DNA of 54,839 nt from Actinomycetota bacterium (lineage in GTDB: Bacteria; Actinomycetota; Thermoleophilia; RBG-16-64-13). The notes under the pieces were generated by a model that saw only the letters and a list, made by a program, of their open reading frames with translations, had not been told where the DNA came from and searched no databases. The number at the start of each line of letters is the position of its first letter. Positions within the stretch are counted from its first letter, which is position 1. Made by a program: the position numbers and the translations under genes. The DNA is taken from positions 1 through 54,839 of the forward strand of contig JAAYZX010000028.1 of NCBI GenBank assembly GCA_012514635.1, given 5' to 3'. Of the stretch, positions 16,245-50,986 are shown in pieces.

Positions 16245-17830
16245 CTAGGCCTCCTGTCATTAACCCGACCCGCCATGGCGGCCGGGATCTCCTCCAACAC
16301 ATCGCCGGCCGTCACCCCGGCCTTGCGCGATGCGGCCGCAATGCCGCCCGCCCTGGCATGAAGCCAGGCCGCCGCGCGCGCTGCTTCTGCCGGCTCCAAA
16401 CCCTTTGCCAACAGAGCACAGATGACACCGGTAAGCACGTCCCCCGTGCCGGCCGAGGCCAGTTGAGGAGGACCCTCCACCACCACCCACGCCGCGCCGT
16501 CAGGCCCAGCGATCACTGTATTTGAACCTTTCAGGAGAACCACCTGATGCGTGGCCGCTGCCGCCGCGCGCGCAGCGGCCAACGGCTCCCGCGCGACAAC
16601 CTGAACCGGTTGCTCCATCAAGGTCGCAAGCTCTCCGGCATGCGGTGTCAGGACAAGCCCCGGCCGGTGCGCCAGCAGATCGGCCCGCCCGGCAAAGGCA
16701 AGAAGACCGTCCGCATCCACAACCGCGGGTACGTTGGACTCCAGCAACACACGCCTCACCACTTCCATGGTGGCCTGCTCTCTACCCAACCCAGGACCCA
16801 CCGCCAACGCCGAGGCCCTGGGGTCCTGTACAGTCTCGATCACCGACTCGGCGTCACTTAGGTGCATGCCATCCGCATAGCCGGTGGCAGTAATCTCCCA
16901 TAGATCGGCCCGCAGGGAGGACACCACTGCCTCAGGAGCCAAGAGCCGTACATAGCCCGCGCCGGCGCGCGCCGCGGCGCGCGCCGCTAAGAGCGCAGCG
17001 CCCGGATATTCAGCAGAGCCGGCCACCACAAACGCGTACCCCGCCCGGTACTTGTGGTCATCCGGCCGGCGGCCGGGCACCCGGACATCGCTCTCCACGA
17101 CCACACGCACGTCCTGCCCCAGCTCCAAGTAACGAGGCAGTCCTATATCCCACACCAGAACACGCCCGGCCGCCTCACTACCGGGCGGCACCACCAGGCC
17201 CGTCTTCGCGGCATGGAACGTAATAGTGGTAGTTGCCACTACAGTATCCGCAGCGATTGCACCCGTCGTCGCGTTCACGCCCGAAGGAATGTCAACGGCC
17301 ACCACGGGCACACCTCCGGCGCCCAGAATGTTGATGGCCCGAACAAACGGCAGCAACGATTTTCTTATCTCACCAACCGCGCCCGTACCCAGCAGGCAGT
17401 CCACCACCACCTCGGTCTCCCTCAAAAGGAAGTCCGGCACGGGTTCGGCGGAGGCAGCCGGTCTTATGTTCACACCGCAACGTTGCGCCGCCTGGAAATT
17501 GAGACGGGCGTCGACACTGAGTTGCTCCACAGTATCCGCAGCCACCAAACACACAACGGGATGGCCCGCAACGTGGAGTTGCCGAGCCGCCGCCAGGCCG
17601 TCTCCCCCATTGTTCCCACGTCCGCACACCACAAGCGTATGCCGCCCCGGATATGAACGCAGAATAAATTCGGATACTCCCAGAGCCGCCCTCTCCATCA
17701 GGACGGGACCCGGCACACCTACGTCTTCTATGACGACGCGATCCAATTCGCGCATCTGTTCCGCGGTCAAGGCATACGGACGTTCAGTCGTCGTATTAAA
17801 TCTGGTCAGTACATCTCGGCACTGTTCCAT
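16232..17830 (-). CDS. nnr: Bifunctional NAD(P)HX epimerase / dehydratase
   Basis: Repairs hydrated NADH and NADPH. 532 aa. The N-terminal YjeF_N epimerase domain (about 15-225) has GRGNNGGDG at 70-78 and VDCLLGTG. The C-terminal YjeF_C dehydratase (about 245-525) has HAGELATLM and the phosphate-binding ASAGTGDVLTG. ATG start at 17828-17830 with GGAGG nine bases upstream, the Shine-Dalgarno being part of the last acpS codons. The acpS-nnr pair is widely conserved. Confidence 0.96.
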   Translation of the reverse strand: MEQCRDVLTRFNTTTERPYALTAEQMRELDRVVIEDVGVPGPVLMERAALGVSEFILRSYPGRHTLVVCGRGNNGGDGLAAARQLHVAGHPVVCLVAADTVEQLSVDARLNFQAAQRCGVNIRPAASAEPVPDFLLRETEVVVDCLLGTGAVGEIRKSLLPFVRAINILGAGGVPVVAVDIPSGVNATTGAIAADTVVATTTITFHAAKTGLVVPPGSEAAGRVLVWDIGLPRYLELGQDVRVVVESDVRVPGRRPDDHKYRAGYAFVVAGSAEYPGAALLAARAAARAGAGYVRLLAPEAVVSSLRADLWEITATGYADGMHLSDAESVIETVQDPRASALAVGPGLGREQATMEVVRRVLLESNVPAVVDADGLLAFAGRADLLAHRPGLVLTPHAGELATLMEQPVQVVAREPLAAARAAAAATHQVVLLKGSNTVIAGPDGAAWVVVEGPPQLASAGTGDVLTGVICALLAKGLEPAEAARAAAWLHARAGGIAAASRKAGVTAGDVLEEIPAAMAGRVNDRRPSWTG

Positions 17831-20125: not shown

Positions 20126-20944
20126 TCACCACCCAACCCAACCGCGGCCCAACACGAGAGCACAACCAAACCACACCAGAGCCGTCAGCAACCAAACGGC
20201 ATCCACGGGCGCCAACCGCATTTCTCGATAGTGAGTCCTTCCCTCGGTGCCTCGGTAGCAGCGGCTCAGCATGGCATCAGCCAGCTCCTCCGCCCTACGA
20301 AAGCCCAGTACAAACAGCGGAACCACAAGGGGTAGAAGCGCCCTACCCGATCGCAAGGGAGACCGAATGGTTAGGGCGATTCCCCTTGCACGCTGCGCCT
20401 TGACCAACTGATCGGACTCGGTCATGAGAACCGGAATAAAACGAAGGGCCAGCGACATAACGAGAGCCACATCGCCGGAGGGTACCCCCACACGACGCAA
20501 AGGGCGAAAATACCAGGCAATCGCATCCGTGACCGCCACCGGCGGTGTGGTTACCACCAACAGAGCGCCGGACAGGAGTAAGAGTAACAATCTTGTCACC
20601 ACCACGCCACCTTGGGCCAATCCCGCTGTGGTGAACCTAAACGGCCCCAGAGCCAGCAGCACTTCTCCAGGAAGTGACATGGCTTGAAAGAACAAGGTTA
20701 TGACTAGGATCACCACGAAAGGCCGCAAAAAGCGCCACAGATACATAACCGGTACCCTCGATATGGCAACTCCCGCCACCAGCCCCAGCGCCATAGTCGC
20801 CATTCCCCACCAGCCGATCACTACAAAAAGAAGGCACGCGTACACAACACTTATGCCGAGTTTGACACGAGGGTCTATGCGATGGAGAACGCTGCTTCCA
20901 GGTAAATACTGACCTACAGCAAGGGAGCCGGATCGCAGTCTCAC
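20126..20944 (-). CDS. ecfT: ECF transporter transmembrane subunit EcfT
   Basis: Membrane scaffold of an energy-coupling-factor vitamin or metal importer. 272 aa with about five to six helices. The signature KAQRARGIAL couples to the ATPases; LHRIDPRVKLG at the N-terminus is typical. GTG 20944 is chosen because it overlaps the ecfA2 TGA as GTGA; the open frame upstream reads through ecfA2 and looks non-protein. No substrate (S) subunit lies nearby, so this is probably a shared group II module. Confidence 0.94.
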   Translation of the reverse strand: MRLRSGSLAVGQYLPGSSVLHRIDPRVKLGISVVYACLLFVVIGWWGMATMALGLVAGVAISRVPVMYLWRFLRPFVVILVITLFFQAMSLPGEVLLALGPFRFTTAGLAQGGVVVTRLLLLLLSGALLVVTTPPVAVTDAIAWYFRPLRRVGVPSGDVALVMSLALRFIPVLMTESDQLVKAQRARGIALTIRSPLRSGRALLPLVVPLFVLGFRRAEELADAMLSRCYRGTEGRTHYREMRLAPVDAVWLLTALVWFGCALVLGRGWVGW

Positions 20945-21771
20945 GTCTGCACCCTGCCCTGCAGCCACATCCGCAGACTCCGCGCATCCACCGGACATGG
21001 AAGATCGGCTCCTAAAGCAAGGGCTACGCGCGTGGATAGCGTCGGCTCCAGCCCGGCAAGTTCCAAAGTTGCTGCATCGCCCAGGACACTCTCGGGCGAG
21101 CCCTCTGCGAGCAGCCTGCCCGCAGATAGCAGAACCACTCTGTCGGCATCCGCCGCCTCTTCCAGGACGTGCGTGCTGAAGACAAGAGAACGGCCGGCGA
21201 TCTCCTCTCTCCACTCCCGAAGCGACAACATGATGTCACCACGCACTCCCGCATCCAAACCGGAACCAACTTCGTCCAACACCAGGAGGCGGGGTTCTAC
21301 TGCCAACACACCCGCAAGTGCAACCCGGCGCTGCTCGCCGAGAGACAGGCGATGAGGGTTCCTGGAACCGAACTCCCTTGGGTCCATGCCGACCAACCTA
21401 AGCGCCTCATCCACTCTTCTTTCCACCAGAGAAGAGGTGAGGCCCAGACAGGTCGGCCCCACACCTACATCCTCGCGTACGGTGGGACAGTACAGTTGGG
21501 CCTCTGCCCGCTGGAACACCATGGCGGCGGCGGCGCCGTACGGCGCCGCCGCCGCCATGGTCACCGTCCCTTCACCCACATCGATCAGGCCCGCCAATAT
21601 CTGCAGAAGCGTACTCTTACCCGAAGCGGTAGCCCCTACAACCGCCATGGTCACGCCGCTGGGCACAGACAGATTAATACTGGAAAGAGCGGGACGCATT
21701 AATGCGGTGCCGGCATTATATGTGTATGACACATCCCGCAGAACAACGAGATCAGGCACGGTCATCGACAC
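20941..21771 (-). CDS. ecfA2: ECF transporter ATPase, second copy
   Basis: ABC ATPase of the ECF importer, 276 aa. Walker A GATASGKS 46-53, Q-loop Gln87, signature LSLGEQ 142-147, Walker B LLVLDE 162-167 with catalytic Glu167, H-loop His201. D-loop region reads VGSGLD rather than PTSGLD. The stretch before the Q-loop is AAAAPYGAAAA (73-83), about eight residues shorter than in EcfA1, and is encoded by a perfect 44-bp palindrome. GTG 21771 has AGGA 11 bases upstream; ATG 21765 is an alternative. It overlaps ecfA1 by 20 bp. Confidence 0.93.
   Translation of the reverse strand: MSMTVPDLVVLRDVSYTYNAGTALMRPALSSINLSVPSGVTMAVVGATASGKSTLLQILAGLIDVGEGTVTMAAAAPYGAAAAMVFQRAEAQLYCPTVREDVGVGPTCLGLTSSLVERRVDEALRLVGMDPREFGSRNPHRLSLGEQRRVALAGVLAVEPRLLVLDEVGSGLDAGVRGDIMLSLREWREEIAGRSLVFSTHVLEEAADADRVVLLSAGRLLAEGSPESVLGDAATLELAGLEPTLSTRVALALGADLPCPVDARSLRMWLQGRVQT
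21518..21561. repeat. Perfect 44-bp palindrome inside ecfA2
   Basis: The 22 bases 21518-21539 are the exact reverse complement of 21540-21561, with no spacer (arms begin ACCATGGCGGCGGCGG). It encodes TM-AAAAPYGAAAA-MV. In RNA it would fold into a stem of about 20 bp inside the coding region; in DNA it could extrude a cruciform. Both ends carry an NcoI-like CCATGG. Confidence 0.97.
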
Positions 21772-22687
21772 CGATCATTCCATCCTGGTCCTTCCGGCCT
21801 CGACCTATTCCTACGCGCCGCAGAGCTTTCTGCAAAACCCCTACAAGATCTTGCTCAGTGAGAACCCCGCTCAGATCTGCGCTCAACTGCGGCCAACCCA
21901 ACCCTATCTCTCTGGCCAACAAGACGGCCGGCGGCACATCCAAGTTGAGCGCCTCCGCCCAACCGCCAAGGAAGAACCCTGCCGGCTCGCCCGAATAGAC
22001 CACTCGACCCTCGTCGAGCGCCACCAGACTATCTGCCCACAGGGCCTCTTCCATGTGCTGCGTAATCCACAAAACTGCCGACCCCTGCTTCACGAGAGGA
22101 CGAAGCAGATCGCGCAATTCCAACCGCATACGGCGATCCAGCATGGATGTGGGCTCATCAAGAACCAGCACCTGGGGTTCCAGTACCAGGACTCCCGCCA
22201 ACACCAACTTCTGCTTCTCTCCGCCCGACAACAGCTGCACCGGTATCGTCTCCTGCCCCTGTAGCCCCACATCGGCCAGGATCGATCGCACCCGCTCCTG
22301 CATGTCCTCACGGGAAACTCCTAGATTCTCAAGGCCAAAGGCGACGTCCTCGGCAACCGTCGCTCCTACGATCTGGCCGTCGGGATCTTGGAAGAGTAGT
22401 CCTACCTTGGCGCGAGCCAGCCACAGATTCGCATCGACTGTCGTGTCCAGACCATCTACAAAGACTTTCCCATCCTCAGGTTGCAACAGCCCGTTGGCCA
22501 AGCGGGCAAGCGTGCTCTTGCCGGACCCATTTCGTCCTACAACGGCAACGATTTCCCCCGGCCGCACATCTAAATCAAAACTGCGTACCGCATAAGGCGC
22601 CTCAGGAGCATAACGAAATTGCACCCCTTGAAAGCGAAGCGCCGGGGTCCTGCGGACCCCGGCGCCGGCCTCACTCTGCGTCGACAC
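21752..22687 (-). CDS. ecfA1: ECF transporter ATPase, first copy
   Basis: ABC ATPase, 311 aa, partner of EcfA2 on EcfT. Walker A GRNGSGKS 51-58, Q-loop Gln100 in FQDPDGQ, signature LSGGEKQK 153-160, Walker B VLVLDEP with Glu178, H-loop in ITQHMEEA. A C-terminal extension follows the ATPase core (about 245-311). GTG 22687 with AGG five bases upstream. It lies 31 bp after rplQ; the rplQ-ecfA-ecfA-ecfT-truA order is common in Firmicutes and deep Actinobacteria. Confidence 0.95.
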   Translation of the reverse strand: MSTQSEAGAGVRRTPALRFQGVQFRYAPEAPYAVRSFDLDVRPGEIVAVVGRNGSGKSTLARLANGLLQPEDGKVFVDGLDTTVDANLWLARAKVGLLFQDPDGQIVGATVAEDVAFGLENLGVSREDMQERVRSILADVGLQGQETIPVQLLSGGEKQKLVLAGVLVLEPQVLVLDEPTSMLDRRMRLELRDLLRPLVKQGSAVLWITQHMEEALWADSLVALDEGRVVYSGEPAGFFLGGWAEALNLDVPPAVLLAREIGLGWPQLSADLSGVLTEQDLVGVLQKALRRVGIGRGRKDQDGMIGVDDRA

Positions 22688-50893: not shown

Positions 50894-50949
50894 CGAAGCG
50901 CCGCTAGGTCGGACACATCTTCTAGTGTACCCGACCTAGCGGCGCTTCG
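50894..50949 (-). promoter_or_regulatory. Long hairpin upstream of rpoB
   Basis: A perfect 19-bp stem, 50894-50912 with 50931-50949, closes an 18-base loop that itself contains ACAC/GTGT. The minus strand after it has no U-run. It lies about 80 bp upstream of rpoB and abuts a second palindrome. It resembles the attenuator and RNase III region of the E. coli rplL-rpoB gap in place, not in sequence. Confidence 0.9.
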
Positions 50950-50986
50950 TCGTCGACGGTTGGCCATATGGCCAACCGTCGACGAC
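50949..50986. repeat. Perfect 38-bp palindrome between rplL and rpoB
   Basis: Bases 50949-50967 are the exact reverse complement of 50968-50986, with no spacer (arms begin GTCGTCGACGGTTGGCCAT). It starts on the last base of the preceding hairpin and lies 16 bp after the rplL stop. It has no U-run. Confidence 0.95.

Follow-up and report, generated by a model that had tools for sequence, protein, structure and literature searches.

A gene for an energy-coupling factor ATPase, ecfA2, from an Actinomycetota bacterium of the class Thermoleophilia (assembly GCA_012514635.1) contains within its coding sequence a 44-bp segment that is its own reverse complement. Genes are expected to contain few palindromes that are both long and perfect. 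In the window, by which we mean the whole stretch of 54,839 nucleotides analysed here (contig JAAYZX010000028.1), ecfA2 is an intact minus-strand gene at 20941-21771 with a GTG start and a product of 276 aa. The product matched PF00005 (E = 7.5e-20), and its best NCBIfam match was TIGR04521 (ECF_ATPase_2, E = 5e-60) with 203 bits, below the curated cut-off of 330. The Walker A (GATASGKST), Q-loop (MVFQ), and signature (LSLGEQRR) motifs were all present, and the nearest solved structures were the EcfA chains 4huq and 4mki. The gene neighbours were those expected of an EcfA2, namely ecfA1 on the minus strand at 21752-22687 (TIGR04520, E = 1.7e-78, below its curated cut-off), which overlaps the start of ecfA2 by 20 bases, and a minus-strand ORF of the CbiQ family at 20126-21214, assigned to ecfT (PF02361, E = 2.1e-41, residues 107-329). 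Because the listed ecfT ORF overlaps ecfA2, its true start probably lies further downstream. The two ATPase genes are separate in the window and fused into a single ORF of 665-733 aa in four family members (L006, L007, L008, and L009). The fused ecfA of two congeners also keeps an identical perfect hairpin with 15-bp arms (L092:1014-1044 and L093:2172-2202), which codes for a GQRQRLALA-type stretch.

The sequence itself and a repeat scan of the window verified the claim of a preliminary description of this DNA that ecfA2 carries a perfect, spacerless 44-bp palindrome (21518-21561, no strand assigned) with arms of 22 bases. It lies wholly within the minus-strand ORF, at an offset of 210 in the CDS and in phase with the codons, which read ACC ATG GCG GCG GCG GCG CCG TAC GGC GCC GCC GCC GCC ATG GTG on that strand; the translation is TMAAAAPYGAAAAMV, which lies between a beta strand and the Q-loop. 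The arm lying 5′ in the mRNA (21540-21561, minus strand, ACCATGGCGGCGGCGGCGCCGT) codes for TMAAAAP, and the outer end of the 3′ arm (21518-21539, minus strand, ACGGCGCCGCCGCCGCCATGGT) codes for the residues with which the conserved (G/A)MVFQ strand of the Q-loop begins. Markov models of orders 1, 3, and 5 built from the window gave a longest spacerless arm of 6-12 bases, so that the observed arm of 22 is far above chance expectation. As RNA, the 44 nucleotides fold at -49.3 kcal/mol (z = -8.5) into a stem of 20 bp closed by a loop of 4 nt, and no known RNA family in Rfam was matched. Elsewhere in the window, a perfect 24-bp palindrome at 16963-16986 codes for AARAAARAG in a 543-aa ORF, and these residues are nearly the same in relatives.

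We compared the segment with the five closest EcfA2 proteins, all of the same family and 48-51% identical. Counted from the glycine before the GxV strand to the FQ of the Q-loop, the stretch has 17 residues in EcfA2 and 25 in EcfA1 of the same operon, in accordance with the reported difference of eight; the corresponding lengths in the five relatives were 11 (L005), 13 (L006 and L007), and 18 (L008 and L009), so the length is ordinary for EcfA2 in this family. As judged from this alignment, the short loop is a family trait of EcfA2 and no consequence of the palindrome, and the idea that the palindrome had replaced a longer loop was wrong. None of the five nearest EcfA2 genes had a palindrome at this site. 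Their Q-loop codons read GGC ATG GTC TTT CAG or GCC ATG GCC TTC CAG, and the end of the 3′ arm (GCCATGGT) matches this conserved strand (GGCATGGT or GCCATGGC). For the 5′ arm there is no equivalent match, and its residues differ from those of the relatives. An AlphaFold2 model (four sequences, mean pLDDT 75) has strands at residues 66-71 and 81-84, joined by coil of low confidence at residues 72-80; this agrees with a surface loop that tolerates change in the palindrome-coded segment. The effect on this gene was probably small, an exposed loop having become a run of alanines.

We propose that the palindrome was a quasi-palindrome in a tolerant loop that was perfected by template switching during replication, a reading to which we assign a probability of roughly 0.6. 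The starting point would be an imperfect inverted repeat, its upstream half formed by GC-rich loop codons and its downstream half by the conserved GCATGGT/GCCATGG of the Q-loop strand. As this repeat was replicated, the new strand would fold back and serve as its own template, and one arm would be copied onto the other. The 3′ arm would be the donor and the 5′ arm the recipient, since relatives retain the Q-loop arm and not the 5′ arm. The product would be tolerated in an exposed and variable loop, and its survival may have been helped by GCG and GCC codons, which give alanine in both arms, and by a length far shorter than that of palindromes harmful to E. coli. The hairpin in the ecfA2 mRNA would then probably be a by-product that is unwound by ribosomes. 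In keeping with the perfect or near-perfect inverted repeat with a short spacer or none that template switching leaves, the repeat is perfect over 44 bp and has no spacer. At the site of the putative seed repeat, pairing extends to 6 of 8 bases in both G009/G014 and G012, a level not clearly above chance, and the closest EcfA2 for comparison with an ancestral or sister state is only 48% identical. Pairwise comparison within the congeneric pairs G009/G014 and G002/G012 revealed no clean conversion of one arm.

Perfect hairpins proved to be frequent across this genome. In a sample of 0.75 Mb from the 2.34-Mb draft (129 contigs), hairpins with perfect arms and a loop of at most 8 nt occurred at 38.7 per Mb when arms of 16 bases or more were counted, the highest value among the 14 genomes sampled, and at 16.0 per Mb when the minimum was 18. 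The genome G001 came next with 35.7 per Mb (arms of at least 16), a figure derived from 84 kb only, and the remaining genomes ranged from 0 to 29. Hairpin density varies across the family. No perfect hairpin with an arm of at least 16 was found in 200 kb of E. coli MG1655; in 0.16 Mb of E. coli coding sequence there was again none of that length, and none even with an arm of at least 10. G-rich 5′ arms were mildly in excess.

Coding sequence contributed nine hairpins with arms of 16 bases or longer in 0.53 Mb, about five of them in well-supported genes, and none after synonymous shuffling. With arms of at least 14 and a loop of at most 8, there were 13 in 529 kb versus about 0.0 after synonymous codon shuffling. 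These counts cover ORFs of at least 200 aa chosen by longest-ORF selection, among them some doubtful ones (shadow ORFs or N-terminal extensions); the ecfA2 site was not credited in the automatic count, because a shadow ORF competed with it. Firm coding hairpins were those in ecfA2 (arm 22, within the class of at least 16), an O-methyltransferase (L042, arm 25), a LytR_C protein (L048, arm 22), a TldD/PmbA protein (L068, arm 18), and a PyrK-like protein (L060, arm 16). Genes for D-Tyr-tRNA deacylase, SMC, MiaA, and an AddA-like helicase-nuclease carry shorter ones. For two of these, SMC and MiaA, alignment with a relative shows no change of length across the palindromic segment, which suggests that it was rewritten in place and not inserted.

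Perfect hairpins were also present outside genes or at their edges, often in pairs (L052:19343-19417, L056:14962-15041, L059:2284-2364, L042:16753-16820, and L065:10507-10574), and such adjacent pairs at gene edges may be tandem terminators. Within the window, two adjacent hairpins at 50894-50986, one with 24-bp arms (8-nt gap, 92% complementary) and the other a perfect 38-bp palindrome, sit between an rplL-like gene and an ORF of 1261 aa, taken here for rpoB. As RNA they fold at -45.3 and -35.4 kcal/mol, and possibly they form an attenuator or a processing site.

When stems of at least 16 bp were sorted by 0, 1, 2, and 3 mismatches, the counts were 9, 4, 5, and 12 within CDS, where a few doubtful ORFs are among the nine and the three-mismatch class includes chance background. 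Outside CDS they were 16, 3, 2, and 3, and in E. coli CDS 0, 0, 0, and 2. Perfect coding repeats thus outnumber slightly imperfect ones genome-wide, a pattern of binary identity that has been read as arm conversion in Nematomorpha mitochondria (PMC6649704). Third codon positions were paired with third codon positions in 17 of 29 coding hairpins, and in that of ecfA2 as well. Such wobble-with-wobble pairing means that both arms can retain acceptable amino acids.

The preliminary description had expected a palindrome of this length to be unstable. Its 44 bp lie just above the lower limit for hairpin cleavage by SbcCD in vitro (palindromes of 20-36 bp; PMC4245961) and far below the 460 bp of a chromosomal palindrome harmful in E. 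coli (PMC4245961). In this genome, neither SbcC nor SbcD had a match over the curated cut-offs. One locus (L197, G000:C20:33000-38500) encodes a calcineurin-like phosphoesterase of 423 aa and, after it, a Rad50-like AAA protein of 912 aa. We regard the two as a putative divergent pair, Mre11/Rad50-like and SbcCD-like, in a genome that has no canonical SbcCD. For exonuclease VII, no xseA (large subunit) exceeded the cut-off in this genome or in the 10 family members tested; a trace match occurred only in G007, and the distant class member G025 has one. We considered loss of SbcCD as the cause of the hairpin excess and rejected it, since its absence did not predict density: pooled hairpin densities for arms of 18 or more were 3.5 per Mb in the other family genomes that lack SbcCD and 3.75 per Mb in those that have it. 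Loss of exonuclease VII as the sole cause was likewise rejected, the absence of xseA being common to hairpin-poor relatives. As neither tracks hairpin density in the family, we offer neither absence as a cause.

The hairpin might instead have been selected as mRNA structure, slowing ribosomes, stabilising the message, or inviting an RNase III-like cut, and thereby tuning EcfA2 against EcfA1 and EcfT. The folding energy and z-score given above speak for this, and the overlap of ecfA1 and ecfA2 means that their translation is probably coupled. Perfect stems could also arise by selection on RNA structure, with which their excess over imperfect ones is compatible. However, the five nearest EcfA2 genes lack the hairpin, Rfam offered no match, and hairpins in unrelated genes (methyltransferase, TldD/PmbA, SMC, and MiaA) argue for a general process. 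We consider selection on the RNA unlikely; the ribosome-pausing hairpin of the preliminary description would be physically possible at this folding energy. Ribosome bypass of the 44 nucleotides would break the reading frame.

A second alternative is that an alanine-rich protein with GC-rich codons, GCG on one side and GCC on the other, became palindromic by coincidence and through no special process. Examples of this kind do occur in relatives, including GGC/GCC look-alikes in a Rossmann-like glycine/alanine stretch (G011) and in a dihydrouridine-synthase-like gene (G002), and codon choice makes a palindrome of the GQRQRLALA stretch in the EcfA fusion of G009/G014. Shuffling that preserves the proteins and exchanges only synonymous codons nevertheless gives almost no hairpins with arms of at least 14, and coincidence is in our judgement a decidedly improbable explanation.

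An artefact of assembly or library preparation, such as a fold-back read or a collapsed repeat, would be conceivable in a draft genome of 129 contigs. Yet the frame and the conserved MVFQ resume exactly after the palindrome even though 44 is not divisible by 3, the gene runs on in both flanks, and many hairpins of the same assembly lie within conserved domains (D-Tyr-tRNA deacylase, MiaA, and SMC). The relatives do have ordinary loop sequence at this site, which had been named beforehand as part of what would point to an artefact; taken alone it is no pointer to one, and we regard this suggestion of the preliminary description as very unlikely.

Rickettsia palindromic elements form dispersed families of related copies, and the ecfA2 repeat resembles them in being palindromic, translated as protein, and placed in a tolerant loop. 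An arm search of the kind called for in the preliminary description found no second intact copy in this genome, the best other match being 30 bp of GGC/GCC sequence within a different ORF on contig C110. The 17 family genomes yielded nothing beyond generic GGC/GCC look-alike palindromes in unrelated contexts, and the arm was not found in viral contigs. The remainder of 44 divided by 3 is 2, and removal of the palindrome causes a frameshift into stop codons; a precise 44-bp insertion is thus excluded. Neither several related copies nor a frame-keeping insertion, the marks of such elements, was therefore seen, and the palindromic insertion element proposed earlier is scarcely tenable. Rickettsia palindromic elements have been mentioned elsewhere as selfish palindromic elements (PMC6649704); the ecfA2 palindrome differs from them as a single intact copy that is not a precise in-frame insert.

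Perfection of a quasi-palindrome by template switching has closer counterparts in known systems. In E. coli, such switching perfects imperfect inverted repeats in lacZ reporters and at a thyA hotspot (PMC7202029), and it does the same to quasi-palindromes in coding genes of S. cerevisiae (PMC8604942) and in RNA genes (PMC8794818). The mutations in E. coli and S. cerevisiae resemble the case of ecfA2 in that imperfect repeats in coding DNA are made perfect, or more nearly so, and their arms homogenised; for ecfA2, in contrast, the end state alone is known. A genome-wide excess of palindromes in prokaryotes has been surveyed (PMC4060949), and the 22-bp arm of ecfA2 is longer than the repeats of 6-9 bp that are in excess in coding DNA according to Ladoukakis and Eyre-Walker (2008), as cited there. 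A broader proposal would be that an unusually active process at work in this lineage gives rise to long perfect hairpins and preserves them, in conserved genes too, with the ecfA2 palindrome as one product; we advance it tentatively, with the odds somewhat against it. If true, a genome with recurrent perfect stems that outnumber slightly imperfect ones would offer a natural setting in which to ask how proteins are remodelled by template switching and which nucleases restrain the process. The chromosome would then be a bacterial counterpart of the mitochondrial genomes of Nematomorpha, whose genes likewise carry translated perfect repeats that are scattered, lie in conserved genes, and outnumber slightly imperfect ones (PMC6649704). 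The Nematomorpha repeats are mitochondrial and reach 284 bp (PMC6649704), whereas those described here belong to a bacterial chromosome and do not exceed 52 bp, arms and loop together, in the stretches sampled.
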